A stretch of 64,000 nucleotides of DNA from Fibrobacter sp. UWH6 (GCF_900142465.1 NZ_FRAX01000016.1:1-64000), one strand, 5' to 3'; shown: positions 36,146-48,962, counted from the first letter of the stretch. A program made the numbers and translations. Notes: generated by a model from the sequence alone, not told the origin.

Positions 36146-37972
36146 TTAACGGAAACGGCCAAACAGTGAAGCGAAAAAGCCCTTCTTCGATGGTTCTTCC
36201 CTGGAAGGTGAATATTTGTCCTTAGCCAGAGGTTTCTTCTCAAAAGTCAAATCCACATCTTCACCCTTCCAGAAAGCCAACATTTTCTTTTGGACTTCGG
36301 AGCAGAAACGTTCATTTTCCTGATAGGACAACAGAACCTGCTTTGCCTGGTCAATCTGATTTTCGATTTCGTAAACCTGAGGGGCAAAGGTCTGGAAGAA
36401 TATCGATTCATCATTCAGCTGCAGATAGATATCCTTGAAGGCATCCTGAATTCCCTGCTTCAAGTTAAGCTGAGCCTTTCTAAACTTTTCTTCGTTGGCC
36501 TTATTCATGATAATGCCAGCCACATCGGCAACAAGCGAAACGGCCGCACCAACCACGGGCAATGTCTTTCCGGCAAAATTAGCCAACTTTACAGCGCCCC
36601 AGGGTTTAAACTTGATGGCAATGCCAACCTTTCCCAGAAGGTCGCGGCCTGCGAAAATCATGGCCTTGTCAATGCCATCAGCCTTCTTAAGCAGACGGGC
36701 ACCTCCCTTGACCAAACCCAGAGCTGCATCGATATTCTTGGATCCCACATCCAAGTCCGCCTGAATTTTTTGACAGGTTGTAGAGACAATTCCTTCAAAA
36801 TGATCTTTCAGAATATCCTGGATGTTGCCTTCCAGCTTGTAGGCAGATCCAGAACCAATTTCATCATCCACGACACTTTGCAATGTATCGGGAGTGGAAC
36901 TATCAATCTTCGAAACGATTCGACGTTCAAGGGCCAAGAGTTCTTCACGACAAGGGCGAATTTCACGCTTCAAGTCCGTGCAAGCATTATTCAGGTCTCT
37001 TTCCAGGACTTCCACAGTATTCTTGGTTTCGGGAATGACAGCCTGATTCAATTCACGCTGTTCATAGTCCAGGGCCTGCAAATTCACCTTGGATTCTTCA
37101 ATGATAGCCGTGAGTGCCGTATCCTGAATCAGCTTCTGGGGAAGGATTTCCTTAACCACGGAATTGACCATATCCCTAAGATTCTGCATTCTGGAATACT
37201 TCTCGTACTGTTCTCTCTTTTCTGGAGTCAGCCAGTAATTCTTGCGGCCGGCACCATTATCCTGCAAGCCCTTTCCTTCGGGATCCGAGGAAATGCACAC
37301 GATGTTCAGATTCTTGATTTTACCACTATTAGCATCCAATCCGCAGAATCTAGAGACATTTTCTACTAGGAAGTTCTTCTTATGCACTTCCTTGGCAGCA
37401 AAATCATCAGGATCCGTATAGTCGCAAACATCATCCATGCGGTTAATGACAAAGATGGTATTGTCGAACTTTTTCAGCTTGTTCATTAACCAAGCTACAG
37501 TCTCCTTGTGACTATCCTTCAAGGGATTGGTTGCTGCCACGATGTACAAAATCACATGGGCTTCCGAAATATAATTCTCCGTCACGCTGGAGAACTTCTG
37601 GCCAAACAGACCCGGCGTATCCACGAACACACAGGGAGGCACATCGGCATCGATATTCTGGGGAGCGTATTCAATCACTTCATCCGAAGATTCCTCTTCG
37701 GCAATTTTCATATTGCTATCTGCATGGCCCAGGAACCCTGCCACCGTACTGGTCTTGCCATCAGAAAAGGCACCCACCAGGGCAATCTTCAACTTGCCAG
37801 ACTGAATGCTGGCTTTTAAGGCTTCTACCTTGTCCATGGATTTCTGGAACGACACCTTCAATTCATCGTTCAGAGTTTTTTCTTTAGCCTGCTTAAGCAA
37901 ATCGGAGAACTGGTCCAACTTGCCCATGAACTTTAAGGTTTCTGCAGAAAAAGCATTTTCATTTGTAGACAT
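36146..37972 (-). CDS. LeoA-like bacterial dynamin-family GTPase
   Basis: A 608-residue GTPase. G1 is GAFSDGKTST (about residues 67-76), G3 FVDTPGLFG, and the G4-like motif is INRMDD in place of NKxD. The remainder is helical with a hydrophobic Gly/Ala-rich segment (FAGKTLPVVGAAVSLVADVAGIIM, about 480-505), the place of the membrane paddle in bacterial dynamin-like proteins. It lies third in an operon, 2 bases after the stop of the 991-residue membrane GTPase subunit, whose last codons supply its ribosome site (AAGGTGG). LeoA of enterotoxigenic E. coli promotes toxin or vesicle release and is encoded with LeoB and LeoC. The exact role here is unknown. Confidence 0.75.
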   Translation of the reverse strand: MSTNENAFSAETLKFMGKLDQFSDLLKQAKEKTLNDELKVSFQKSMDKVEALKASIQSGKLKIALVGAFSDGKTSTVAGFLGHADSNMKIAEEESSDEVIEYAPQNIDADVPPCVFVDTPGLFGQKFSSVTENYISEAHVILYIVAATNPLKDSHKETVAWLMNKLKKFDNTIFVINRMDDVCDYTDPDDFAAKEVHKKNFLVENVSRFCGLDANSGKIKNLNIVCISSDPEGKGLQDNGAGRKNYWLTPEKREQYEKYSRMQNLRDMVNSVVKEILPQKLIQDTALTAIIEESKVNLQALDYEQRELNQAVIPETKNTVEVLERDLNNACTDLKREIRPCREELLALERRIVSKIDSSTPDTLQSVVDDEIGSGSAYKLEGNIQDILKDHFEGIVSTTCQKIQADLDVGSKNIDAALGLVKGGARLLKKADGIDKAMIFAGRDLLGKVGIAIKFKPWGAVKLANFAGKTLPVVGAAVSLVADVAGIIMNKANEEKFRKAQLNLKQGIQDAFKDIYLQLNDESIFFQTFAPQVYEIENQIDQAKQVLLSYQENERFCSEVQKKMLAFWKGEDVDLTFEKKPLAKDKYSPSREEPSKKGFFASLFGRFR

Positions 37973-37974
37973 AG

Positions 37975-40950
37975 CTAAGCCACCTTGATTTGATTGATAT
38001 TCTTTTGGATTTCCTCTGTAATCAGAAGCATCTTCTTTTCCAGAGACTGAACGAGTTCATAGGATTTAATTGCAGATTCAATCTGATACTTGGCATCAGC
38101 AATATTGGCGTCTAGGCACGAAGCAAGACTTTCAGCATGGCTATTAATCTTGCCGGACATTTCGTACCAGGCATCGCGAGCAGAATCTTCAACGGCGTCG
38201 GCCGCCTTTTTCTTGCACTTACGAATCTTGGATGCATCCGATTCAAAGAAACTGAAGATTGAAACCAGCACGCCAACAACAGCACCAACAATACCGCCGA
38301 CAATATTTCCAATCACCGGGAACGCCGTTCCAATGGCAATACCGGACATCACATAGCCACCGATCGTAAACGCCACATTGCCAAGGGTTCCCATGTTAAA
38401 GGAGTCCACAGAAATAGAAGGCAATTCCATAGAAAGGTTGCCAATGTCCAGTTTCATGCCACGAACATATTCGTCTGTATAGGACTGCACTCTGGCAGAG
38501 AAATCATTGATGGCCTCTTCCATGGCCTTGGAAACACGATTCTGGAATCGAACCTGTAAATCAGATTTGTGATTATTCATGGTGTATTCCAGCTCATCAT
38601 CAACGATTTTCTTATTCCGTTCAATATGAGGATAGATGATTCCTTCTAGAACATCAATCCGGTAGAAATCAAAGACTGCATTTTGGGCGGCACTGGGCAA
38701 GTTTCGCTTAATTCTATAAGCGGCCTGTTCCAGATTCGAGATATAGCTGCCGGCTCTCTGATTGACCTGGCTCCTAAAATTGTCAATGACATTCTTTTGA
38801 TTTCTAATGGTTGCGATATACTCTGATTCCAGAGTACTCTTCAATCTCACCAGGGCAGCCTTCTTAATGCGGCTGGGAGCGCTTTCGCAATTATGGATAA
38901 TATAATTTCTCAAGTCGGCTAAACGGCTCACCTGCAAAAGTTCCATTTCGGTTGCGCGACTCAAGAAAGAACTCTGCTGCCTGCGTAAGGTCTTCAGGGA
39001 ATCACAGACCGCTTCGTTATCCTGGTGGAGCATGGGATTTTCAAAAGTAGTCACCCCCTGGTTCATGGCCAAGGCGCACAAGCCCGGGAGCACAGCAACG
39101 CCAAACGTATTCTTGTAAAGATTGTTCTTCACCACACAGCGAAGTTTTTCTTCGATATTCACATTGTTCTTGGCGGCCTTACTTACCTTTTCGGTAATAT
39201 CCTTAACGTAGTTATCGCCTTCATATTCCTTTTGCGGTTGCAGCGGGATATTATGGATGCCAATGACTTCGGTTACGTTCTTTCTTAGATAATCGTTCAC
39301 CTTAGCCAAGGTACTTTCTTCTAGGCCCTTGGATTCACGAGCCACATAGCAAACCAGGTGAGCCTTACCCAAGGCACGGCTAATAATATCCTTGAAGTAT
39401 TCTTCCTTTCCTTCAATACCCGGAATATCTACCAACTGGGCAGCTTCCCCATTGATATTCAGGGAATAGGTCTTGTAATCCTTGGTAAAGTCCTGGCTAC
39501 CGTTACCAATAATGGCACCATCGACCTGAAAATACTTTACAGTGGTACGCAATCGGTTCAATTCGATCAATTCGATCAAGTTATCAATAACACGTTCCTG
39601 TTTTGTGGGGAACAAGGATTTTTTGATTTTCGAAGCCTTAAGCAGGCTCAAAATACCAGGTCTTTCGTCTGTAGATTCAGCCAAGTCGTTGGATGCGGTT
39701 TCAGCCTTGGCGGTCTCAACAGTCTTGGCTGTTTCGGTCCTGGCAGTCTTAGGAGTTTTTGCTGCAACTTTTTCGGCTTTTGCTGCCAGGGGCTCATTCT
39801 TTGAAGCCTTGGGCTGCTGATGGACAGCAATCGAATCGGAAGCCAACCAGCGGAACAAACCCTTGACTAAACGGCCTAAGGCCGCAAGGCACTTCATCAA
39901 GAAATAGAATGAAGTGAATAAAATTCCAAAGTACACCAGGAGGCAGGCGTAAACACTATTTATAGACAAGGAGGAATTCAAAGTTTCTGTCAAATAGGTA
40001 TCCAATCCGCCCTTAAAGACTAGGGAAACACAATGGACCGCTTGGGTGACTGCCCCCATGCAATCGTAAATTCCAAAATCAAGTGGTTCCTTGGGCATAT
40101 TGAAGAATACCACACCCAAAAAACAGGAACTGGCCCAAAGCAAACCGACAAAGGTAAGCATGGTAGAAACCGTTGTTGCCAGGAAGATTCTGCCATCGGA
40201 CAAGGCGCAACTTACTTGACTCAAACCAAGAAGAATAGCGATGACAGCAATAACTGCAAAACCGATGCCAAAATACCATGCACCCAAGACATAAGCGAAC
40301 AAGGACAAAAACATGGTGATTGCGGTCAGCATGGGATAAAACGGAGTCCATCCAAATTGATCACTAGGAGTAGGCTTTTCTACAACCGCTTTCTTGAACA
40401 CCCTGGCAATAAGAGCAAGCCACTTCCTCTTAATCATGCACATCATACAAATAATGGACATCATCGAGAAGAAGGCGTAAAAAAGGTAGGCGGCAGCAAT
40501 GCAAACTAAGGAAGCCCTAACGACAGACACATCAGCCCCTTCAGCAGCATTCTGAACAAAAGCTTCTAGCCCTGTCGTTGTCCAGCTATGTAGAGCCATC
40601 AAGAATTTGCGGAAAACCCCTACAAAGCCATCTGTGCCAAAGTTTACCATGGTATCCAGCTTTTGCTGATTCACGACAACATTGGTGCAGAACACTCCAG
40701 CTACAAAAACAACCCCTGACGAAATCAGCGTATGAATAAGAGCCGACAGGGTATAAAGCTTGGACTCATAGGCGCCGGCGCAGAAAATTGCCCCCACCAA
40801 GGCGCAAACGACAGCCACGGCTGCCACAATGTAGGCAACGACTGGGTAACCACTTCCGCACACAGCCATGGAAATAAGGAACAAGGCGGCAGTGCCCCAT
40901 GCCCCTTGAGCTTCCATACGAAGCTCTTCTTTTTTTTCTTCATTAGCCAT
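37975..40950 (-). CDS. Large membrane dynamin-like subunit lacking a P-loop (LeoB/C-like)
   Basis: A 991-residue protein. The N-terminal 350 residues contain about seven transmembrane helices. An Ala/Lys/Thr-rich linker (about 375-430) follows, then a G-domain fragment: YKTYSLNINGEAAQLVDIPGIEG holds the switch and G3 (DIPG), and EVIGIHNIPL sits where G4 belongs, but no GxxxxGKS motif precedes it. The rest is long helices with a C-terminal hydrophobic Gly-rich hairpin (GNIVGGIVGAVVGVLVSIFSFF), typical of dynamin membrane paddles. The missing P-loop is in the preceding gene product; the two genes overlap as TAATG. Start 40950 was chosen for that coupling. Confidence 0.7.
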   Translation of the reverse strand: MANEEKKEELRMEAQGAWGTAALFLISMAVCGSGYPVVAYIVAAVAVVCALVGAIFCAGAYESKLYTLSALIHTLISSGVVFVAGVFCTNVVVNQQKLDTMVNFGTDGFVGVFRKFLMALHSWTTTGLEAFVQNAAEGADVSVVRASLVCIAAAYLFYAFFSMMSIICMMCMIKRKWLALIARVFKKAVVEKPTPSDQFGWTPFYPMLTAITMFLSLFAYVLGAWYFGIGFAVIAVIAILLGLSQVSCALSDGRIFLATTVSTMLTFVGLLWASSCFLGVVFFNMPKEPLDFGIYDCMGAVTQAVHCVSLVFKGGLDTYLTETLNSSLSINSVYACLLVYFGILFTSFYFLMKCLAALGRLVKGLFRWLASDSIAVHQQPKASKNEPLAAKAEKVAAKTPKTARTETAKTVETAKAETASNDLAESTDERPGILSLLKASKIKKSLFPTKQERVIDNLIELIELNRLRTTVKYFQVDGAIIGNGSQDFTKDYKTYSLNINGEAAQLVDIPGIEGKEEYFKDIISRALGKAHLVCYVARESKGLEESTLAKVNDYLRKNVTEVIGIHNIPLQPQKEYEGDNYVKDITEKVSKAAKNNVNIEEKLRCVVKNNLYKNTFGVAVLPGLCALAMNQGVTTFENPMLHQDNEAVCDSLKTLRRQQSSFLSRATEMELLQVSRLADLRNYIIHNCESAPSRIKKAALVRLKSTLESEYIATIRNQKNVIDNFRSQVNQRAGSYISNLEQAAYRIKRNLPSAAQNAVFDFYRIDVLEGIIYPHIERNKKIVDDELEYTMNNHKSDLQVRFQNRVSKAMEEAINDFSARVQSYTDEYVRGMKLDIGNLSMELPSISVDSFNMGTLGNVAFTIGGYVMSGIAIGTAFPVIGNIVGGIVGAVVGVLVSIFSFFESDASKIRKCKKKAADAVEDSARDAWYEMSGKINSHAESLASCLDANIADAKYQIESAIKSYELVQSLEKKMLLITEEIQKNINQIKVA

Positions 40951-41444
40951 TACATGCCCCCTACGACAAAGCCAGCAGCAAAACCAGCGACCAAAGTCAC
41001 CACAGGGATCACATAGGACATGACACTTCTCTTGCACCCCGCCTTAATATTATTCAGGTCTCTTACAAGGGTATCGCAGCGTTTCTGGAAATCCTTCTCG
41101 ATCGAAGCCATGTCGGCTCCATTCTGTTCCATCTGCTTTCGGCGGGATTCTTCGTCAAACAGGATTCGTAGAGATTCAATAATGGTACTCTTACCGGCAC
41201 CAGTCTGGCCAAAAAAGGCAATGGAGAACTTGTCAAATTCGGAATTGCGTTCCAATTCCTCCACCAAGTCCTTAAAATGTTCTTTTTGTTTTTCTAGATC
41301 ATCAATGAAAACACCCACTTTTTCCTGAAGTTTTTCATCGTTTTGAGCATTCACGGCCTTCAGTTCATTCAATATCTGATCAGCGGAATCTGTGACCTGG
41401 GTATAGACATTCTTTACTTCTTCTCTAGTGTTCGTAGTCGACAT
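40950..41444 (-). CDS. P-loop half of a split dynamin-like GTPase, membrane-anchored
   Basis: A 164-residue protein: N-terminal coiled coil (about 10-70), then IAFFGQTGAGKSTIIESLRIL (G1/Walker A, about 76-95), a second helical stretch, and a C-terminal transmembrane helix (SYVIPVVTLVAGFAAGFVVGG). No G2, G3 or G4 motif follows; the chain ends after the membrane helix. With the next gene product, which has G3 but no P-loop, it can make one complete G domain. It is first in the operon, with the ribosome site GAGGA 5 bases before the ATG at 41444; a possible upstream ATG at 41456 lacks one. Confidence 0.72.
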   Translation of the reverse strand: MSTTNTREEVKNVYTQVTDSADQILNELKAVNAQNDEKLQEKVGVFIDDLEKQKEHFKDLVEELERNSEFDKFSIAFFGQTGAGKSTIIESLRILFDEESRRKQMEQNGADMASIEKDFQKRCDTLVRDLNNIKAGCKRSVMSYVIPVVTLVAGFAAGFVVGGM

Positions 41445-41812
41445 GGGCGTCCTCAAAAATGTAATAATATTGGGAAATGTAATCTTTTTTACACATTTAC
41501 GTTTCCTTTCTTACAATATTGTGAACTTTTTGTGAGCATTATCATTCCAATTTGGGATATTTTCCTCAAGCGACTGGAACTTATTTTGCCTTTTTGGGAA
41601 AAATGCTCGCCAACTTTTCCACGAAGTTCCACCATAGGGTGAAAATTTGCCCTCTTTTTCACTCACTTTTCCCCACAAAATGGGCATTTTGCGTTAAAAC
41701 CGGCCATTTTCACTCACTTCGGGAAACTTTTTTCAAAAAAAATGTCGTTTTCACAACACTTCGGGGGGCGTTTTTTGCATTTTAGGCGAGTAGGGTTAAA
41801 AAAGGAGTTCAA
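41445..41812. promoter_or_regulatory. Divergent intergenic region between the dynamin operon and the helical-protein gene
   Basis: A 368-base AT-rich gap. Seen in it: a 10-bp palindrome ACAATATTGT (41513-41522); an inverted pair TGGAACTT (41575-41582) and AAGTTCCA (41614-41621), the same 8-mer that is repeated in the WYL-gene promoter 6 kb away; two copies of TTTTTCACTCACTT-like sequence (about 41656 and 41707); and the ribosome site AAAGGAG before 41813. No exact TAnnTTTG element is found for either direction (TACATTTC is the closest on the minus strand). No gene is seen. Confidence 0.5.
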
Positions 41813-42547
41813 ATGAAGTCAATCATCAAGATCAAGTTTCACGACATGCGGAACCTCGAGTTTAGAGGTGTCCAGTATCAATTACTCCAGATGGCGCAGG
41901 ACATCAAGACTCCGGGAGCATCTTCCTTCATAGAGGATTTCAGAAGTTCATTTCAGGAAATGTGCCAACACTTTGATTCCGGGCTGCAGGATTCCCCCGA
42001 CCGCATCGTCCACAACATCCACGAGGAGCGATCCTCCTTTTATTACCGGTGTCGCGCCGTGGCCAAGGCGGCCGCCAGCCATCCCAACCCCACAGCACGT
42101 GAAGCCGGGCAGAAGTTGTGGAGCATTTTCCAGAAATTCCCCTCCAGCGCACGGATAAACCAGCTTCAAGCCTACGGTATGATCGGACGTTTGGTGAACA
42201 ATGCCCGTTCTATCGGGGAAGACGCCCTGGAGTGTTGCGGTTGCAAGGTTTGGATCGACGAGCTGGACCGAATTAACCAGAGTTTCCTGCAGGCAGACGC
42301 CGAGCGAAACTATGCACGAGGCCATCGGGAGTTGAAGCAGAGCCTCCACCTGCGGGATCGATGCACCGAGGCATTCGACCTGATCGCCACATTCGCCAAG
42401 TTCCAGGCCGCCCAGGGGGATATTTCCTGCGCCCGTTTCATCGATTCCGCCAACGCCATGCTAAAGGACAAGAAGATGCACATGGCCCAGCGCAGGAGCA
42501 GCAAGGGAAACTCCTCCGAAATCAAGTACTTGCCAGTTGTGATCTAG
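41813..42547 (+). CDS. Helical protein of unknown function (DUF6261-like appearance)
   Basis: A 244-residue, mostly alpha-helical, cytosolic protein without signal or membrane segment. The beginning (IKIKFHDMRNLEFRGVQYQLL) and the overall length recall the DUF6261 group common in Bacteroidetes, but I cannot confirm membership. It has basic and Cys-containing stretches (ALECCGCKVWIDEL) and no enzymatic motif. It has a good ribosome site (AAGGAG) and stands between the dynamin operon (divergent) and the GLUG-repeat gene (same strand, about 80 bases away). Confidence 0.5.
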   Translation: MKSIIKIKFHDMRNLEFRGVQYQLLQMAQDIKTPGASSFIEDFRSSFQEMCQHFDSGLQDSPDRIVHNIHEERSSFYYRCRAVAKAAASHPNPTAREAGQKLWSIFQKFPSSARINQLQAYGMIGRLVNNARSIGEDALECCGCKVWIDELDRINQSFLQADAERNYARGHRELKQSLHLRDRCTEAFDLIATFAKFQAAQGDISCARFIDSANAMLKDKKMHMAQRRSSKGNSSEIKYLPVVI

Positions 42548-42595
42548 GAATCCCGCTACTTGACGGGTTTTACGCATCAGATGTATATTTTACAA

Positions 42596-42603
42596 TACAT
42601 TTG
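42596..42603 (+). promoter_or_regulatory. TAnnTTTG -7 element of the GLUG-repeat gene
   Basis: TACATTTG, 24 bases upstream of the GTG at 42628. It shows that transcription begins after the preceding gene and rules out the longer in-frame extension back to 42361. Confidence 0.6.
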
Positions 42604-42627
42604 GGTTTTACGTTTTACCCCAAGGGT

Positions 42628-44127
42628 GTGGCGATAAAGATTAAATTTTTTGGCAAGACTTTCAAGACAATTGCGTTTTTAATACCGGCAGCATGTTCCG
42701 CCGTTTTCGCACAGTGGAACGGTACCGCCAGCGAACCCATCGAGAAGAATGTTATCGATGGCAAGGTGTTCTACACCATCACCAGCGCCGAGGAATTAAC
42801 CTGGGTCGGTGTCCAGGTCAAGAACGGTTTTAACGGGATCAATGTGGTGTTGGCTAACGATATTGTTTTCGGCGCAGATTCCTCCCAGACCAGTTCCCGC
42901 CTCTGGACCCCCATCGGAAAAGACACGACCACCGCCTATGCAGGCACTTTCGATGGTGCAGGTCACACAATTTATGGCTATTATGTAGAACAGGGAACAT
43001 TTGCAGGCCTTTTTGGAGCCCTTTCTCCTGATGGTGTTATCAAGAACTTGAGGGTTGCCAATAACAAGGTAACCGTCACAGAAGCAAGTGCGACCGCTGG
43101 GGGTATCGTAGCCTTTAATAGAGGCCTCGTGGATAATTGCGAAAACTCGGGGACTGTGGACGTCACCACGAAGGCTTATGCTGCAGGGGGTGTAGCCGGC
43201 ATTAACGAAGGAGTCGTATCCAACTCCTCCAATTACGGTTCCGTTACCTCCAAAACAACAATGACGTCCGAGGGCGGCTTTGAAAACGGCACCCGAGCCG
43301 GAGGCATTGTTTCTTTCAATCAATACGGAAAAGTTTTCGACTGCGTTAACCATGGTGACGTCGTTGCCGCCACGGTACTTGTCCCGATCGATATTGATAA
43401 CGACTGTATTGCCGGCGGTATTGCAGGCGGTAATGAAGGTTCCCTATATCGGAACTTCAACGACGGCTCCATTATTTTCCGCAATTCCTATAACAATTCG
43501 GGAACCAACATGAAATTCACAAGCACCGGCGGCATCGTAGGCCGCAACCTCGGCTTCGTGGAGAGATCTTCCAACTGGGGCAATATCATTGCCAAGATTG
43601 CCAGCACGTCAACAAAGGCCGGCACAAGTTCCTATTCTACGGCAGGCGGCGTTGTCGGCGCAAGCAGAGGCACGGTCAGCGACGTATTCAATACCGGTTC
43701 CGTGACCGTTACGAAAGTTGCCACGGCTTCCTACGCGGGAGGCATTCTCGGTTCCCTATTCGGATCCGAAAAGTTAACCAACAGCTACAATGCCTCGTCA
43801 AATATTACCGGCACTTTGATTGGTGCGGTTTCCGCTTACATTACAGAATCATCCCATGTGCAAAATTGCCACTATGACGCATCCTTGTTCAGCACCAAGA
43901 CTCCCGCCATCAAGTCTGTCGGCGGATCGGCCACCGTCAAGGATACTTCGGGATTAAAGACCGACAACATGAAGTCCGACGAAATGGCCTGGATCCTGAA
44001 CACTGTCAACAACACCGAAAAGAACAGGAAGCTCTGGGGCCGCGAAGACAGCTATCCCGTCTTCGCCAACGAATCCGTCAAGCCGATTTCCCGCGTAACC
44101 ATGAATAACGATGGCGAGGAGCTGTAG
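42628..44127 (+). CDS. Secreted GLUG-motif surface protein, frameshifted at the 3' end
   Basis: A 499-residue protein starting at GTG 42628 with a signal peptide (KFFGKTFKTIAFLIPAACSAVFA). The mature chain is a series of GLUG-type repeats, for example TAGGIVAFNRGLVDNCENSG, AAGGVAGINEGVVSNSSNYG and GGIVGRNLGFVERSSNWG, which build beta-solenoid-like surface or adhesin domains. It ends prematurely at TAG 44125-44127 (NNDGEEL). Shifting the frame by one base at this point continues into a 46-codon sorting-tail-like segment, so the original gene was about 545 residues. Whether this is a real mutation or a sequencing error cannot be told here. Confidence 0.78.
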   Translation: MAIKIKFFGKTFKTIAFLIPAACSAVFAQWNGTASEPIEKNVIDGKVFYTITSAEELTWVGVQVKNGFNGINVVLANDIVFGADSSQTSSRLWTPIGKDTTTAYAGTFDGAGHTIYGYYVEQGTFAGLFGALSPDGVIKNLRVANNKVTVTEASATAGGIVAFNRGLVDNCENSGTVDVTTKAYAAGGVAGINEGVVSNSSNYGSVTSKTTMTSEGGFENGTRAGGIVSFNQYGKVFDCVNHGDVVAATVLVPIDIDNDCIAGGIAGGNEGSLYRNFNDGSIIFRNSYNNSGTNMKFTSTGGIVGRNLGFVERSSNWGNIIAKIASTSTKAGTSSYSTAGGVVGASRGTVSDVFNTGSVTVTKVATASYAGGILGSLFGSEKLTNSYNASSNITGTLIGAVSAYITESSHVQNCHYDASLFSTKTPAIKSVGGSATVKDTSGLKTDNMKSDEMAWILNTVNNTEKNRKLWGREDSYPVFANESVKPISRVTMNNDGEEL

Positions 44128-44264
44128 ACGTCTTTGATATGCAGGGAAGACCTGTCATTGTCCAGAAGTTCACGAAGGGCAACGCCAACAATCTCACCCT
44201 TCCCCGCAGCGGATCTTACATTTTGAAAGTTGCCGGACAAACAAAACAAGTTACCGTCAAGTAA
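44124..44264 (+). pseudogene. Out-of-frame C-terminal sorting tail of the GLUG protein
   Basis: Read from GTA at 44124, the frame gives VDVFDMQGRPVIVQKF...LPRSGSYILKVAGQTKQVTVK and stops at TAA 44262-44264. The pattern V-x-DxxGR...G-Y-x-L-K-V...K-V-x-V-K is that of C-terminal secretion/anchoring tails of FCB-group secreted proteins and matches the tails of the esterases at 57934 and 59535. It is in the -1 phase relative to the GLUG gene and overlaps its stop codon. Confidence 0.7.
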
Positions 44265-44275
44265 ACATTCGAAAC

Positions 44276-44302
44276 AGTGCTCCCCAAGGGAGCACTTTTT
44301 TT
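44276..44302 (+). terminator. Intrinsic terminator between the GLUG gene and the E1 gene
   Basis: AGTGCTCCC (44276-44284) pairs perfectly with GGGAGCACT (44288-44296) around CAA, followed by seven or eight T. It stops the GLUG transcript just before the convergent E1 gene. Confidence 0.9.
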
Positions 44303-45566
44303 ATTGGAACTTTTTCAGCATCTCTTCCAATTCATCCCCTTCATCTAAAGCAATGGGACCTTGACTGCATTGGGCACAATTGTCAAGTTGCCGAATATGG
44401 CTTCCGTACCATCGAAGGATGGTTGGCTTTGGCCCTGCGCCAGGCATGGGGCTCCAATTGGCAAAGCGGTTTTCACGACGGTTTGCCCACATGTAGTAAT
44501 CGTACACCAGCTCATTCTCGAGGGCGGAAATGCCGGAATCTATTCCACGGGAAAGTTCCACCAAGGAGATTTTCACCATCATATTGCAAATAGGTGCGAT
44601 ATCAGCAGATAGACCTACTTGCACCACGGCATTCGCCTCCTCGGGACTTACATAGGCGGCAATCTGCCCATTACGTCGGGCGCTTTCTACATTGGTAATC
44701 TCCTCAGCTTCAGCGTCAAACCAAGCATTTCCAAGTAGGCAATTGTAGCAAGGGCCGTCGGGCACGTAACGGAAAACGTCTCCTCCGGCAGCACGGGAAT
44801 TGGCCCTGCCAAAAATGCAGACCTTACGATGTCTTACAACGGAGTCATTCAAGTTAAATCGACTCTTGTTATTATCGGTAGCACAAATAACCAGATCCGC
44901 CCTGGAGACCTCTCTGTTTAACAGAGTCAAATCCTGATTAATATCCACCGGGAACCGATCCACCTGTGCGTAAGGATTTTTTCCCAGGATGGCATCACAA
45001 AGAGCATCCGTTTTTAGGCGTCCCAAATCATTTACCACACAAGTATGGCGCATCAAATTGTGCAATTCCACCCTATCGAAATCCAGTAGGGAAAAGGAAC
45101 CCACGCCCGCCTTGGCAAGTTCTATTGCAATTTGGGAACCGAAACTTCCCAAGCCAACAATCATCACCCGCTTAGACACAAGCGCACCAACTTCCAAAAT
45201 TCCTTGACTTCGGGAATAGAGATTTTCCCGTGAGGGAATAAATTGCAGTTCCATTTTCTGCCACCATGGGGAAATCCGTTTTTCGGATGAAACGCCATTG
45301 GTCACTTCCGTAGAGCAGTATGCATCTGCAGAATTCTTCGTTACCAAAATCAAGTAGCGATACTTTTCAGCTTCCACAGGATCTTCTACAGCGCAAAGGT
45401 CTCGAGTAAACAGGCAAAGAGATTCCCTGCCGTAACCATGGGCAGGGCGATACATATGGAAATGGACAACCCCCTCCCCTTCCCATTCGCAGGCAACTCC
45501 TTCCCAGGATACAAGATTCCCATTTAGAAATTCCTGTAATTCCTGCTGGTCCAAAAAGGCTAACAT
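44301..45566 (-). CDS. E1-like activating enzyme (ThiF/MoeB/UBA fold)
   Basis: A 421-residue protein. Residues 1-120 are an unrecognised N-terminal domain; residues 121-380 form the E1 adenylation domain: nucleotide motif VMIVGLGSFGSQIAIELAKAG, LLDFDRVELHNLMRH (Asp and Arg of the ATP site), LGRLKTDA (Lys) and LVICATDNNKSR (Asp for magnesium). Paired zinc-binding CYNC and CAQC occur as in ThiF-type E1s. Several other Cys (for example in APICNMM) could form the thioester. It should adenylate the C-terminus of a small modifier and pass it to the E2. It is last in the five-gene operon and overlaps the 78-residue gene by 7 bases; AAGGAAGG lies before the ATG. Confidence 0.85.
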   Translation of the reverse strand: MLAFLDQQELQEFLNGNLVSWEGVACEWEGEGVVHFHMYRPAHGYGRESLCLFTRDLCAVEDPVEAEKYRYLILVTKNSADAYCSTEVTNGVSSEKRISPWWQKMELQFIPSRENLYSRSQGILEVGALVSKRVMIVGLGSFGSQIAIELAKAGVGSFSLLDFDRVELHNLMRHTCVVNDLGRLKTDALCDAILGKNPYAQVDRFPVDINQDLTLLNREVSRADLVICATDNNKSRFNLNDSVVRHRKVCIFGRANSRAAGGDVFRYVPDGPCYNCLLGNAWFDAEAEEITNVESARRNGQIAAYVSPEEANAVVQVGLSADIAPICNMMVKISLVELSRGIDSGISALENELVYDYYMWANRRENRFANWSPMPGAGPKPTILRWYGSHIRQLDNCAQCSQGPIALDEGDELEEMLKKFQ

Positions 45567-45796
45567 GCAAAACCTTCCTTGGTCATGCCCGTAACGACAG
45601 TTCCCTGGGTAGGAGCCTGGCCTTTTGCCACCTGGCGAAATTCTCCAGTAGTTTCATCAAATACCAGGTCAATCATGGAATGACCAGATCCCTGACCACC
45701 CTGCTTACGAATTTCTTCGCCCAGTTTCTGTTCAGCACGACCCGCAAAGCCATCTGCAGAGAAGGCGGTAAAAATCTTAATGTTTTCTTTTTTCAT
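45560..45796 (-). CDS. 78-residue protein of the conjugation operon, candidate modifier
   Basis: A small protein beginning MKKENIKIFTAFSADG, with a short helix (GRAEQKLGEEIRKQG), a strand pair (MIDLVFDETTGEFRQVAKG) and the C-terminus TVVTGMTKEGFAC. I do not recognise a family. It has no di-glycine end and no convincing ubiquitin fold, but it is encoded immediately before the E1, at a position where such operons often carry the modifier. Start 45796 has AGG about 7 bases upstream; an ATG at 45829 has none. Alternatives are a conjugation substrate or an accessory factor. Confidence 0.6.
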   Translation of the reverse strand: MKKENIKIFTAFSADGFAGRAEQKLGEEIRKQGGQGSGHSMIDLVFDETTGEFRQVAKGQAPTQGTVVTGMTKEGFAC

Positions 45797-45860
45797 AACG
45801 ATACCTATTTGTTGTTTAAATGTGTTCATAGATGCATGGCCGGGGGCGGGAGCAACCCCA

Positions 45861-46355
45861 TCACGATTGATGATTCAGGTAATAGTCAATGTCATTACCA
45901 GTTTCCAGATGTAGTTCATACATGTTTAGCCACAGGCAGCACTTCACGTAAATCTTGTACAGCGACACCCCCGGATTCCAGGAAGCATTTCCGTAATGGC
46001 AGATACGGGTCCAGCCATGTTCTGAATCCAGCACATGCATGGAACCATCGCAGGAATCCAGACGATTTCCATCCCGATCCTTCAACATCTGAGTCACAAA
46101 GACCTTGGGCACATCATTGGGGAAACGTCGCAAATCCATGTGCAACGTATACAGGTTCCTCTTGGTGCGGGCTGCAAATACCGCATATGGTTTTTCACCC
46201 ATGTAAATGTGATAGACGTTATCGGGAACGTTCTTCCGTTTCAGCACCCCAATTTCACTTTGCACCCGTTCAGGCGTGAGACGAACATCATCTTCATCGT
46301 CGTCCTCATCATCGGAACGATGAGACAATAAAGCGTTTATCAATTCTGCAAACAT
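45861..46355 (-). CDS. E2-like ubiquitin-conjugating-fold protein
   Basis: A 164-residue protein. After an acidic N-terminal segment (HRSDDEDDDEDD) comes an E2-like fold: strands YAVFAARTKRNLYTLHMDL, the FPNDVPKVFVT turn (equivalent to the P-x-x-P strand region of E2s), then HVLDSEHGWTRICHYGNASW with the likely catalytic Cys (RIC), followed by NPGVSLYKIYVKCCLWLNMYELHLETG, the crossover helix seen in bacterial E2 proteins. The HPN tripeptide of eukaryotic E2s is not present. It overlaps the JAB gene end by 16 bases and has GAGG before the ATG. Assignment is from pattern and context. Confidence 0.72.
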   Translation of the reverse strand: MFAELINALLSHRSDDEDDDEDDVRLTPERVQSEIGVLKRKNVPDNVYHIYMGEKPYAVFAARTKRNLYTLHMDLRRFPNDVPKVFVTQMLKDRDGNRLDSCDGSMHVLDSEHGWTRICHYGNASWNPGVSLYKIYVKCCLWLNMYELHLETGNDIDYYLNHQS

Positions 46356-47374
46356 GATTCATCCTCTTTTTCAAGTTGCCTATTCCGAGTCACCGCGGCA
46401 TAATATTGGGTAAAGGCTTCAAGAATATCTCCCTGAAAATTCCATTGAACCTCTCCCCCCGCGGTGACTCCATCTATGGAAACACTTACGGGAACCTTCG
46501 GGAATTCCGCAGGAAAGTACAAGTCAACATTTCCCACCATCACGTGCACATGATGATTTTCATCCAGCATGACAGACACTTTCTGAGGATAAGACGTTTC
46601 TTTCAGGAACTTGTTTATTTGCACCAAGACCTTCTTGTTCTGAACCGAATTGAGCCAATAACCATCATCAAATTCGCTTACCACTCGGTCCTTCGCCACT
46701 TCAACCTTGTACACTTCTCCATGGCAGGGTTTGGGGGACTCCGGATGAATCAGCACATCCTGCAAATCCTGATCCACCAACTGCCTAAAAGGAGATTCAC
46801 ACTCCTTGATACTCCAACAGGCCATCTCATAATCGTAGCCATGATCCTCATGAAAATTGAAGGCGTTAAAGGTGGTTCGCAGTTCTGCATAACCGGAACC
46901 ACCATTCCCCAAGGCCACTCCTCGTTTCACTTGACAATTTCCAATGCAAAGCAAGAATCGACGCAAATGGGAACGGCAAATATTATTTACCATGGTGGAA
47001 TCATCATGGCCACTGGGCCGTGCCAATCCCAACTGATGATGAGAATGCCATTCCCCAATATGTTGCAGCCCGTACTTTTCCAACAGGAAATTACCAACCT
47101 TTACCAAATAGTCCAGGTCCTGGTTAAAGAAGGTTTCCTGATGGTTCGCATTCCGTCCTGGGCCGATCGCATATAGAACTACGGGTATTCCCGTGGACGT
47201 CCAGAAACCAAACAGTTGGCCTCCCGTTTCTATATCCGGATAATCCAGGATGCAGCGGGAGACGTAATCCAGTTCGCTCCTGTAAATCATGGCCAAGGGC
47301 GAAGGTGAGCTTTCATCGGGATTCTTCCCGCCATACTCAAACCAAAGCCCGTGCTTTTTTAAAACATTAGACAT
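46340..47374 (-). CDS. JAB/MPN+ metalloisopeptidase fused to an RWD/E2-like domain
   Basis: A 344-residue protein. The JAB domain (about residues 20-170) has the upstream Glu in DIETGGQLFGFW and the zinc motif HIGEWHSHHQLGLARPSGHDD, i.e. HxH-x8-S-x2-D. After a linker, residues about 240-340 look like an RWD or inactive E2 fold: VHVMVGNVDLYFPAEFPKVPVSVSIDG resembles the beta-meander and P-x-x-P region, with no catalytic Cys. JAMM enzymes of such operons process or remove the modifier. The start 47374 has AAGGTGG 6 bases upstream; earlier in-frame ATGs at 47422 and 47398 have weaker sites. Confidence 0.82.
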   Translation of the reverse strand: MSNVLKKHGLWFEYGGKNPDESSPSPLAMIYRSELDYVSRCILDYPDIETGGQLFGFWTSTGIPVVLYAIGPGRNANHQETFFNQDLDYLVKVGNFLLEKYGLQHIGEWHSHHQLGLARPSGHDDSTMVNNICRSHLRRFLLCIGNCQVKRGVALGNGGSGYAELRTTFNAFNFHEDHGYDYEMACWSIKECESPFRQLVDQDLQDVLIHPESPKPCHGEVYKVEVAKDRVVSEFDDGYWLNSVQNKKVLVQINKFLKETSYPQKVSVMLDENHHVHVMVGNVDLYFPAEFPKVPVSVSIDGVTAGGEVQWNFQGDILEAFTQYYAAVTRNRQLEKEDESCLQN

Positions 47375-47400
47375 TCTGGGCCACCTTATATCAAACATTT

Positions 47401-47790
47401 CTAGCAATCTTCCAAGCCACATTCCCGGGTCACCTCGTCAATGGCCTTCTCGATATCATGACCCGATTCCACGGCGTTCTTGAACTTTTCCAGACCCATG
47501 CAAAGTTTGTTCATTTCCCCCATCATGATGTCGCCTGTCTTTTTTACGGCATAAAAACTCATGTCGATGCCCAGGCAAACAGTCGCCTTTTCCGAAAGCC
47601 CAAATTCCTGGGCCAGCGCCGTGGATTCGCGTTCAATAAAATCTTCGTCCTTTTCCATGTCGTAGACGAAGTCTCGCTGGGCACCAGCCAACTTTTCCCG
47701 GAGTTCCTTGACGACTTCGGTCTCCTCCACATAGGCAGCCAAAACTTCGGCCAAGGTAAACAGCACTGATGTATCTGAAATCTGGATCAT
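47401..47790 (-). CDS. 129-residue helical protein, first gene of the conjugation operon
   Basis: An unrecognised protein, mostly helical by eye (LAEVLAAYVEETEVVKELREKL; MNKLCMGLEKFKNAVESG), with a short possible strand segment in the middle (KATVCLGIDMSFYAVKKTG) and the C-terminus ECGLEDC. No signal or membrane helix. It heads the operon, with ribosome site GAGG before the ATG and a TATCTTTG promoter element about 48 bases upstream. The stop at 47401-47403 lies 26 bases before the preferred JAB start. It could be a sensor, substrate or adaptor. Confidence 0.6.
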   Translation of the reverse strand: MIQISDTSVLFTLAEVLAAYVEETEVVKELREKLAGAQRDFVYDMEKDEDFIERESTALAQEFGLSEKATVCLGIDMSFYAVKKTGDIMMGEMNKLCMGLEKFKNAVESGHDIEKAIDEVTRECGLEDC

Positions 47791-47889: not shown

Positions 47890-47938
47890 AAAAGTGGAAC
47901 TTTTATTTTTATAGAAATAGGCAAATATGGAACTTTTA
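47890..47938. promoter_or_regulatory. Candidate operator repeats for the WYL regulator
   Basis: Palindrome AAAAGTGGAACTTTT (47890-47904) and a second TGGAACTTTTA (47928-47938) form direct repeats 33 bp apart, about three helical turns. The second lies just upstream of the near-consensus -7 element TATATTTA (47945-47952) of the WYL gene, and the first lies between the two divergent promoters. A regulator bound here could control both directions. Confidence 0.55.
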
Positions 47939-47957: not shown

Positions 47958-48962
47958 ATGGAAAATTCCGCTAAAATCAAAATCGCCGTATCGGCGACTA
48001 TTCGAAACCAGCTTGAAATGGATATTCAAGATTACCAGCTAAAAGGGATTGGCGAACTCTGCAACAAGATTATCGAATTGCGCCAGGAACTAGCTTCATT
48101 TCCTTTATCTAAGCGTATTTCAAGGGAAAATTGCGAACTTTTCAAGAACAGCGCACCCCTGCAATTTATCCTTCACAAGCGCAATGGGGAATTCGCGACT
48201 TACGCCGTTTCTAAAAAAATCAAGATAGCCACCTTGTGCAGGCATTACCTACAGCAGTACGTAGACATGCCCCGTGGCAAAAGAGAAATCTTTCTCAAAA
48301 AAGTGGAACTTTCAAAAATAGATTACGCCATTGAAAACCAGCTAAATGTTTGGCTAGACTATCACGGAAAGAGAAAATTGCTGGCACCATGCTTTGTCGC
48401 TCTTTCTCCTGCCCACATGAGGGCCTACCTGGTAATTTGCGAAAGATCCGAGTTGGGAGTTGAATTCAAGGCATTTCGCTTAAGTCACGTCAAGAACGTT
48501 GAAGTGGCAACAGCCCATAACAGCAACTCTGCCGATGATACAGTCGCCTTCCACACTCAAACCAACGCTCTATACAGGAAATCGTTAGATTTTAAGAATC
48601 ATTTCGACCCCTTCCTTTGCTATGGCCAGGAGCTAAAAGTGGAACTTTCTCCTGAAGGGGTTGCCTTATACAATAGGGCTGCCACGAACCGCCCCAAGAT
48701 TCTTAAGGCTCCCCAAAACCCTGGCAGTCACAATTCTTTCGTTTCCGCTCAGGAAGAAATCGCTAGCGCCTTGGACGCCCAACGTCCCGGCATCTATACC
48801 TTCGAATGCTCCCCGGAACTAGCCAAGGTCTATTTTCCTCAATTTCTGGAAACGGCACAGGTCCTCGCCCCCGCCGAGCTACGCCACTACTTCCGCCAGC
48901 GATTCCTGAAGGCAGCCTCAGCCTACGGCCTCGTGGATCAATTCACCGCCAAAAAAGTTTAA
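47958..48962 (+). CDS. WYL-domain transcriptional regulator
   Basis: A 334-residue protein. The N-terminal part (about 1-130) is helical and may bind DNA, without a clear canonical helix-turn-helix. Residues about 130-200 match the WYL fold (VWLDYHGKRKLLAPCFVAL...AYLVICERSE...FKAFRLSHVKNVEV), and the last 90 residues look like the WCX extension (TFECSPELAKVYFPQFLE). WYL proteins such as CapW and BrxR repress bacterial defence operons and respond to a ligand, possibly nucleic acid. It is divergent from the E1/E2/JAB operon, with shared candidate operators between them. The start is set by the -7 element directly upstream. Confidence 0.82.
   Translation: MENSAKIKIAVSATIRNQLEMDIQDYQLKGIGELCNKIIELRQELASFPLSKRISRENCELFKNSAPLQFILHKRNGEFATYAVSKKIKIATLCRHYLQQYVDMPRGKREIFLKKVELSKIDYAIENQLNVWLDYHGKRKLLAPCFVALSPAHMRAYLVICERSELGVEFKAFRLSHVKNVEVATAHNSNSADDTVAFHTQTNALYRKSLDFKNHFDPFLCYGQELKVELSPEGVALYNRAATNRPKILKAPQNPGSHNSFVSAQEEIASALDAQRPGIYTFECSPELAKVYFPQFLETAQVLAPAELRHYFRQRFLKAASAYGLVDQFTAKKV

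Follow-up and report, generated by a model that had tools for sequence, protein, structure and literature searches.

A candidate ubiquitin-type conjugation operon of Fibrobacter sp. UWH6 with a small hairpin-bearing peptide as putative modifier

To our knowledge, every known ubiquitin-like pathway, eukaryotic or bacterial, uses a modifier with the β-grasp fold; Pup is the known disordered exception, and its enzymes are unrelated to E1, E2 and JAB proteins. In the 2025 work of Gong et al., the Bub ubiquitin-like proteins reportedly have β-grasp domains. Here we describe an operon of the rumen-type bacterium Fibrobacter sp. UWH6, located in a 64,000-nucleotide stretch of DNA (GCF_900142465.1 NZ_FRAX01000016.1:1-64000; hereafter the window, in which all positions are counted), where genes for an E1-like enzyme, an E2-like protein and a JAB metalloprotease accompany a gene for a peptide of 78 amino acids. 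The operon lacks at least one defining feature of each of Bil, Bub, type II CBASS, 6A-MBL, PRTRC and Pup. Bil is a four-gene set of modifier, E2, E1 and JAB, whose E2 carries the CEHH motif C-x5-E-x-H-x4-H (PMC11354881), while a WYL (CapW) or other stress regulator often governs Bub operons, which are not shown to protect against phage (PMC13373217).

The three enzymes and the small gene form a conserved core. Approximately 85,000 genomes were scanned with the JAB alignment, yielding 46 loci, a lower bound because the scan requires an exact short motif; with iterated profiles, and after removal of two duplicates, 44 complete loci were counted. The order JAB-E2-small gene-E1, on one strand, is kept in all 44, across five phyla (Fibrobacterota, Bacteroidota, Kiritimatiellota, Verrucomicrobiota and Cyanobacteria). 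The loci come mainly from gut and rumen Bacteroidales metagenome-assembled genomes, and the cyanobacterial ones include Spirulina subsalsa and Anabaena assemblies. A profile recognizes the small gene in 38 of the 44 loci; in the other six, an open reading frame (ORF) of 55-65 amino acids, judged by reading to be of like style, lies between E2 and E1. Pairwise distance matrices of the four core proteins correlate (rho 0.72-0.84, Mantel p ~0.001), as expected of a co-inherited module. Within the Fibrobacterota, the JAB gene is present in 3 of 168 genomes, with the whole six-gene arrangement beside metG in all three. The first-pass annotation of this DNA had drawn five minus-strand ORFs with their overlaps (g1/JAB, JAB/E2 and small gene/E1 in the window) and a divergent gene, and every one was found where it had been placed; the genes it described as a five-gene operon are real, while the conserved unit comprises four, g1 and the WYL gene being confined to the three Fibrobacterota loci of the recovered set. 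The gene g1 is a lineage-specific addition outside the conserved core. For the single promoter of that annotation, no consensus match was found on the minus strand of the 167-nucleotide region between the operon and the WYL gene; the single-promoter reading relies on the overlaps and the layout.

Single-sequence hidden Markov model searches (Pfam, NCBIfam and PADLOC) identified the E1 (ThiF, E=1e-31), the JAB (PADLOC, 6e-12) and the WYL regulator, returned only a marginal PADLOC match for the E2 (E=0.0017), and gave no credible match for g1 or the 78-amino-acid protein. The E1 consists of an N-terminal domain of ~120 amino acids, a MoeB/ThiF-like domain and Zn-binding CxxC pairs. The 32 homologues show no variation at its GxGxxG (138-143), N170, R173, K185, D231 and Cys 273/276; Cys 397/400 are kept in 31 of them, S320 is nearly invariant, and position 327 is occupied by Cys (24), Ser (5) or Thr (3). 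The model of an E1 homologue matches ThiF, Cap2 and BubCD, the Foldseek alignment to BubCD covering ~416 columns but at a root-mean-square deviation of 18-19 Å; MccB, an E1-like enzyme acting on a short peptide, and PaaA are among the closest structures. In the JAB protein, the JAMM site (E65, H126, H128, S137 and D140) is invariant in 33 homologues, which defines it as a JAMM metalloprotease. Its C-terminal region, which carries an FPxxxP segment, matches weakly to the E2 profile and to Vps37A (E 0.3), a protein with a UEV domain at its N-terminus; the region is a likely candidate for an inactive UBC/RWD domain. Of the earlier label JAB/RWD, the first half stands on a complete active site and the second on these weak matches.

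The identity of the E2 was settled by deep alignments together with a structure model, single-sequence searches being insufficient. The residues C119 (in RICHYG), H107, H120 and W126 are invariant in 45 homologues, and up to 19 of the 45 are matched by PADLOC E2 profiles; the E2 profile found nothing significant among PDB sequences. The AlphaFold model (predicted local distance difference test, pLDDT, 91) displays the defining features of the UBC fold, namely a helix, a four-strand meander and the Cys before a long helix, with a moderate fold score: the top PDB match is UbcH5c (probability 0.93, template modelling score 0.45-0.50, E 0.18), followed by the Fanconi core complex. By our own reading, the stretch H-x11-C-x6-W-x-P may parallel the HPN…C…WSP signature of eukaryotic E2s. 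These results bear out the motifs first noted in the window, namely the E1 GxGxxG, ATP-site Arg/Lys/Asp and CxxC pairs, the E2-like Cys and the JAB H126-x-H128-x8-S137-x2-D140, as well as the UBC fold of the E2 as a prediction and the conservation of the genes together.

The small gene encodes a previously undescribed peptide family of 56-82 amino acids (median ~62), present as a single copy in the genome of the window. In an alignment of 31 members the N-terminus varies; then come the hairpin motif L-[VI]-[FY]-[ND]-x-x-TG-[ED]-F (LVFNPxTGEF), a variable linker, and the C-terminal motif V-x-x-M-T-x-[ED]-G-F-A (MTkeGFA). Between 0 and 5 residues follow it, and in many copies GFA is the very end. 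Conservation up to the very end of the chain is as expected of a modifier activated at its C-terminus. In five loci (L017, L018, L034, L046 and L047) the peptide is fused to the N-terminus of the E1, with GFA retained at the junction (GFF in cyanobacteria); extra copies occur in L012, L021 and L028, and a second hairpin unit follows GFA in L041. Given these fusions and duplications, a protease would have to release the peptide, for which the JAB is the natural candidate. Together with the C-terminal tails, the fusions and duplications would point to a precursor that requires cleavage; the internal DGFAG near the N-terminus of the window peptide could be the scar of an earlier unit. Profile searches found no Pfam match and no PDB relative for the peptide. 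The PDB matches returned for its profile were designed or natural kelch-type repeats with a DPxTGEW-like turn and were taken as chance. The model of the natural L017 fusion contains one hairpin (moderate confidence), two short helices (low confidence) and no β-grasp, and in a charge-hydropathy plot 18 of 30 peptides fall on the disordered side; that the peptide is largely unstructured is plausible.

Part of the peptide recurs in neighbouring proteins. An FNPxTG hairpin stands at the N-terminus of many downstream membrane, Ig-like or SH3 partners: it was detected in 21 of the 121 ORFs that lie on the same strand in the 4.5 kb after E1, versus 1 of 453 other ORFs, the latter lying itself inside an operon (Fisher p=2.6e-14, an optimistic value, as related loci are not independent). 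We read the hairpin as a putative docking handle and GFA as the probable reactive end of the peptide. A Clp AAA+ gene (Pfam AAA_2 and ClpB_D2-small) follows E1 in 22 of the 44 loci. Its product has the two Walker A motifs, but where unfoldases that bind ClpP have [LIV]G[FL], the copies readable by pattern lack it, except for one probably coincidental VGL, three copies being unreadable. Beyond Clp lies a membrane/SH3 protein, or an Ig-like protein with a DUF4407 membrane protein. The DUF4407 proteins are consistently paired with a hairpin-bearing Ig-like protein downstream of E1 or Clp (L026 16012-17517, L028 8811-10112, L037, L040, L041 and L054). Several cyanobacterial loci have a divergent NB-ARC ATPase instead of the Clp and membrane partners. 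The far side of the Fibrobacterota loci varies: a Clp ATPase in genome G089, and dynamin-like proteins instead of Clp in the other two, LeoAB in the window and other dynamin-like genes in G150.

In its composition, the operon differs from each related system. Bub is the closest described kin: its conjugation operons have similar regulators, and BubCD is matched by the E1 model, at the large deviation given above; the present operon has a hairpin-plus-tail peptide of ~60 amino acids and no β-grasp BubA. Bil shares the set of modifier, E2, E1 and JAB, and 3 of 45 E2 members weakly match BilB. However, BilA has two ubiquitin-like domains, whereas the peptide has no β-grasp by Pfam, PDB or model; the CEHH motif of BilB is absent, HYGNASW following C119; and BilD has a Cys domain, whereas in the E1 described here only the Zn-binding Cys are conserved. 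Type II CBASS Cap2-Cap3 and 6A-MBL share the E1-E2-JAB logic, the E1 fold match to Cap2 and the nearest JAB profiles, the 6A-MBL cap2_3 profile matching 33 of 33 JAB members. They differ in that the operon has three separate proteins rather than an E2-E1-JAB fusion, together with a dedicated peptide: Cap2 is an E2-E1 fusion, whereas E2 and E1 are separate genes in 44 of 44 loci, and the window JAB scores 22 bits against a 6A-MBL family cut-off of 320. Among the scanned operon genes there was no metallo-β-lactamase or CD-NTase, flanking genes having been scanned in part. From PRTRC it is set apart by a weak PRTRC_ThiF match (19.5 bits, cut-off 144.75) and no match to the PRTRC JAB or E2. The analogy with Pup/UBact lies in a small, low-structure tag, putatively attached at its C-terminus, and an AAA+ unfoldase linked in many loci; here, however, ubiquitin-type E1/E2/JAB enzymes replace a PafA-type Pup ligase, the C-terminus is GFA(x) rather than GGE/GGQ, and the unfoldase is ClpB-like, not proteasomal. 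The operon thus appears to work like a ubiquitin-type pathway yet to belong to none of these systems, in line with the earlier remark that its composition matches no described type. No description of a JAB-E2-peptide-E1 system was found in the literature searched, which excluded the two most relevant Bub papers.

We consider it somewhat probable that the operon is a ubiquitin-type protein-conjugation pathway with the 78-amino-acid peptide as its modifier. A fuller proposal, to which we give slightly less than an even chance, is a widespread bacterial tagging system in which the peptide put on by ubiquitin-type E1, E2 and JAB enzymes is minimal and largely unstructured, the E1 has no catalytic Cys, and the tagged proteins pass to a dedicated ClpB-like unfoldase. 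The steps, all read from the anatomy of the genes, would be as follows. The JAB would cut at or close to the conserved GFA and so free the mature peptide, whether it starts out with a tail, in tandem copies or fused to the E1; the E1 would adenylate the peptide C-terminus and hand the peptide to Cys119 of the E2, either directly or through residue 327, so that the adenylate would either pass straight to the E2 or involve an unusual nucleophile. The E2 would then join the peptide to target proteins, from which the JAB would later take it off. The TG β-hairpin, common to the downstream partner proteins, would serve for docking, and in half of the relatives the ClpB-type unfoldase would then remodel the tagged complexes.

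Several observations weigh against this proposal. The peptide has neither the Gly-Gly end nor the β-grasp fold of known ubiquitin-like proteins, and its GFA end is degenerate in L032/L033 (RPFF) and L035/L036 (HGWANR). Among 32 E1 sequences, conservation of Cys is limited to the Zn ligands, so a conserved catalytic Cys is missing. The E2 fold search has an E-value of 0.18, and few members reach Pfam E2/RWD models; the L017 fusion model has an overall pLDDT of 66 and gives nothing reliable on docking; and no Clp gene lies beside the operon in the window itself. In the form given by the first-pass annotation, a complete conjugation pathway is not supported: beside E1, E2 and JAB a β-grasp ubiquitin-like protein is missing, and a hairpin-plus-tail peptide stands in its position.

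The same evidence can be arranged differently. Since the hairpin is common to other proteins of the loci, at least that part of the peptide looks like a docking motif, and the peptide might serve as an adaptor or regulator without covalent attachment, say by activating E1/E2 or as a substrate bait. The modifier would then be an unlinked chromosomal ThiS/MoaD-like protein, or E1 and E2 would act directly on the C-terminus of a partner. The close resemblance of the E1 to MoeB/ThiF suits this explanation, and the direct peptide-E1 fusion could serve tethering; we nonetheless judge it rather unlikely, as conservation is equally strong in the C-terminal motif and the hairpin, that motif lies at most five residues from the C-terminus in the aligned free copies, and no linked ubiquitin-like gene was seen in the loci inspected. 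Improbable in our view is a small-molecule pathway, similar to those of ribosomally synthesized and post-translationally modified peptides, in which the E1 would activate the peptide C-terminus towards a modified peptide product, with E2 and JAB as maturation factors. The short, precursor-like peptide and the closeness of the E1 to MccB and PaaA point in this direction, as do two radical-SAM-like proteins encoded immediately upstream of the Kiritimatiellota operon (L013 2142-5147; homologues in L016 and L031). MccB likewise adenylates the C-terminus of a short peptide, but microcin C biosynthesis has no E2 or JAB and its product is an antibiotic, not a protein tag; here, no locus lacks an E2 or a JAB, both with intact active sites, and neither an exporter nor an immunity gene was consistently seen. 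Across the phyla the peptide end is conserved and not hypervariable, and a process at the protein level suits the Clp and membrane partners.

Should the peptide have a cryptic ubiquitin-like fold that neither sequence nor AlphaFold revealed, the operon would be another Bil- or Bub-like one; the place of the peptide suits a ubiquitin-like gene and bacterial ubiquitin-like proteins can diverge strongly, but a median of ~62 amino acids that includes a low-confidence N-terminus, a model of one hairpin and two short helices, and the lack of any Pfam, PDB or profile match make this very improbable. Least credible of all is a sulphur carrier (thiocarboxylate donor) like QbsE or CysO, trimmed by the JAB: JAB, E1 and small protein are the layout of sulphur-transfer operons (PMC1779556) and the Fibrobacter peptides end in Cys, yet that Cys is not conserved outside Fibrobacter, the E1 has no rhodanese domain, no sulphur genes were noticed next door, the Gly-Gly end is missing, and a dedicated E2 is found in all loci.

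The features of the window are listed in Table 1.

Table 1. Operon genes and associated elements in the window
Feature	Position	Strand	Basis
Hairpin resembling a terminator, between E1 and the convergent neighbouring gene	44276..44296	+	Such sites not rarer in shuffles
E1-like adenylyltransferase, 421 amino acids	44301..45566	-	ThiF match, invariant ATP-site residues, Zn Cys, model of a homologue
Small peptide, 78 amino acids, putative modifier precursor; TGEF hairpin and C-terminal TKEGFAC	45560..45796	-	Peptide family alignment
E2-like conjugating enzyme, 164 amino acids, predicted catalytic Cys119	45861..46355	-	AlphaFold model, fold match, invariant residues
JAB/JAMM metalloprotease, 360 amino acids; C-terminal FPxxxP region, possibly UBC/RWD-like	46340..47422	-	PADLOC JAB, invariant JAMM residues
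g1, 129 amino acids, no assigned role	47401..47790	-	In Fibrobacterota loci only
Direct repeat of TGGAACTTTTA, two copies, upstream of the WYL gene; tentatively a possible operator	47895..47938		Sequence repeat
Divergent WYL-type regulator	47958..48962	+	PADLOC WYL E=7e-11; kept with the operon in three Fibrobacterota genomes

The WYL gene had been recognized as such at first reading. Its product may be akin to CapW-like defence regulators, given the WYL match and the conserved adjacency to the operon, and by our own reading its N-terminus resembles a ribbon-helix-helix; it would probably induce the operon under stress, such as phage infection. The TGGAACTTTTA repeat occurs in one copy in L008 and is absent from L007. 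The idea of a defence role arises from the WYL regulator, the patchy distribution and the neighbours (LeoAB, the nuclease and TIR genes and the islands of the WYL paralogues described below); a stress response and antiphage defence are both possible roles, the case for the earlier proposal of defence being circumstantial, drawn from neighbourhood and regulator only. A scan of the neighbourhoods for defence genes was mixed (single matches, for instance to Cas10, DpdF and PsyrT, alongside ordinary metabolism) and was not used as proof of defence.

WYL paralogues with 43-49% identity occur in other Fibrobacter genomes without the conjugation operon (L056-L064), where they border variable islands that encode ZorAB-like, HerA, dynamin, patatin and FISUMP-type proteins. 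In the window, the LeoAB dynamin-like pair occupies 36146-41456 (PADLOC LeoA 1e-204, LeoB 4e-242); the P-loop GQTGAGKS of LeoB lies in a separate upstream ORF (40950-41456) overlapping the main LeoB ORF by ~4 nucleotides, so that LeoB appears to be split, and membrane segments lie where the two parts meet. Between the operon and LeoAB (41813-44264) are a DUF6261 protein and a repeat-rich protein that looks secreted, neither of which was seen at the corresponding place in G150 or G089. A viral-contig scan with the E2 found no relatives, and a plasmid search found only a distant JAB-E2-E1 set on two plasmids of Bradyrhizobium barranii (Alphaproteobacteria; L055 4784-11154), where a CBASS-type nuclease and a TIR protein follow an E1 with a degenerate, peptide-like N-terminus, KLVYDKTRRTIVAVS.

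If the conjugation reading is correct, E1, E2 and JAB enzymes do not require the ubiquitin fold, and a peptide of ~60 amino acids would be a very small genetically encoded tag. The pathway would combine ubiquitin enzymology with a Pup-style tag, and would connect a ClpB-type unfoldase with bacterial conjugation. With so compact a core, reconstitution in E. coli is feasible and the claim directly testable.

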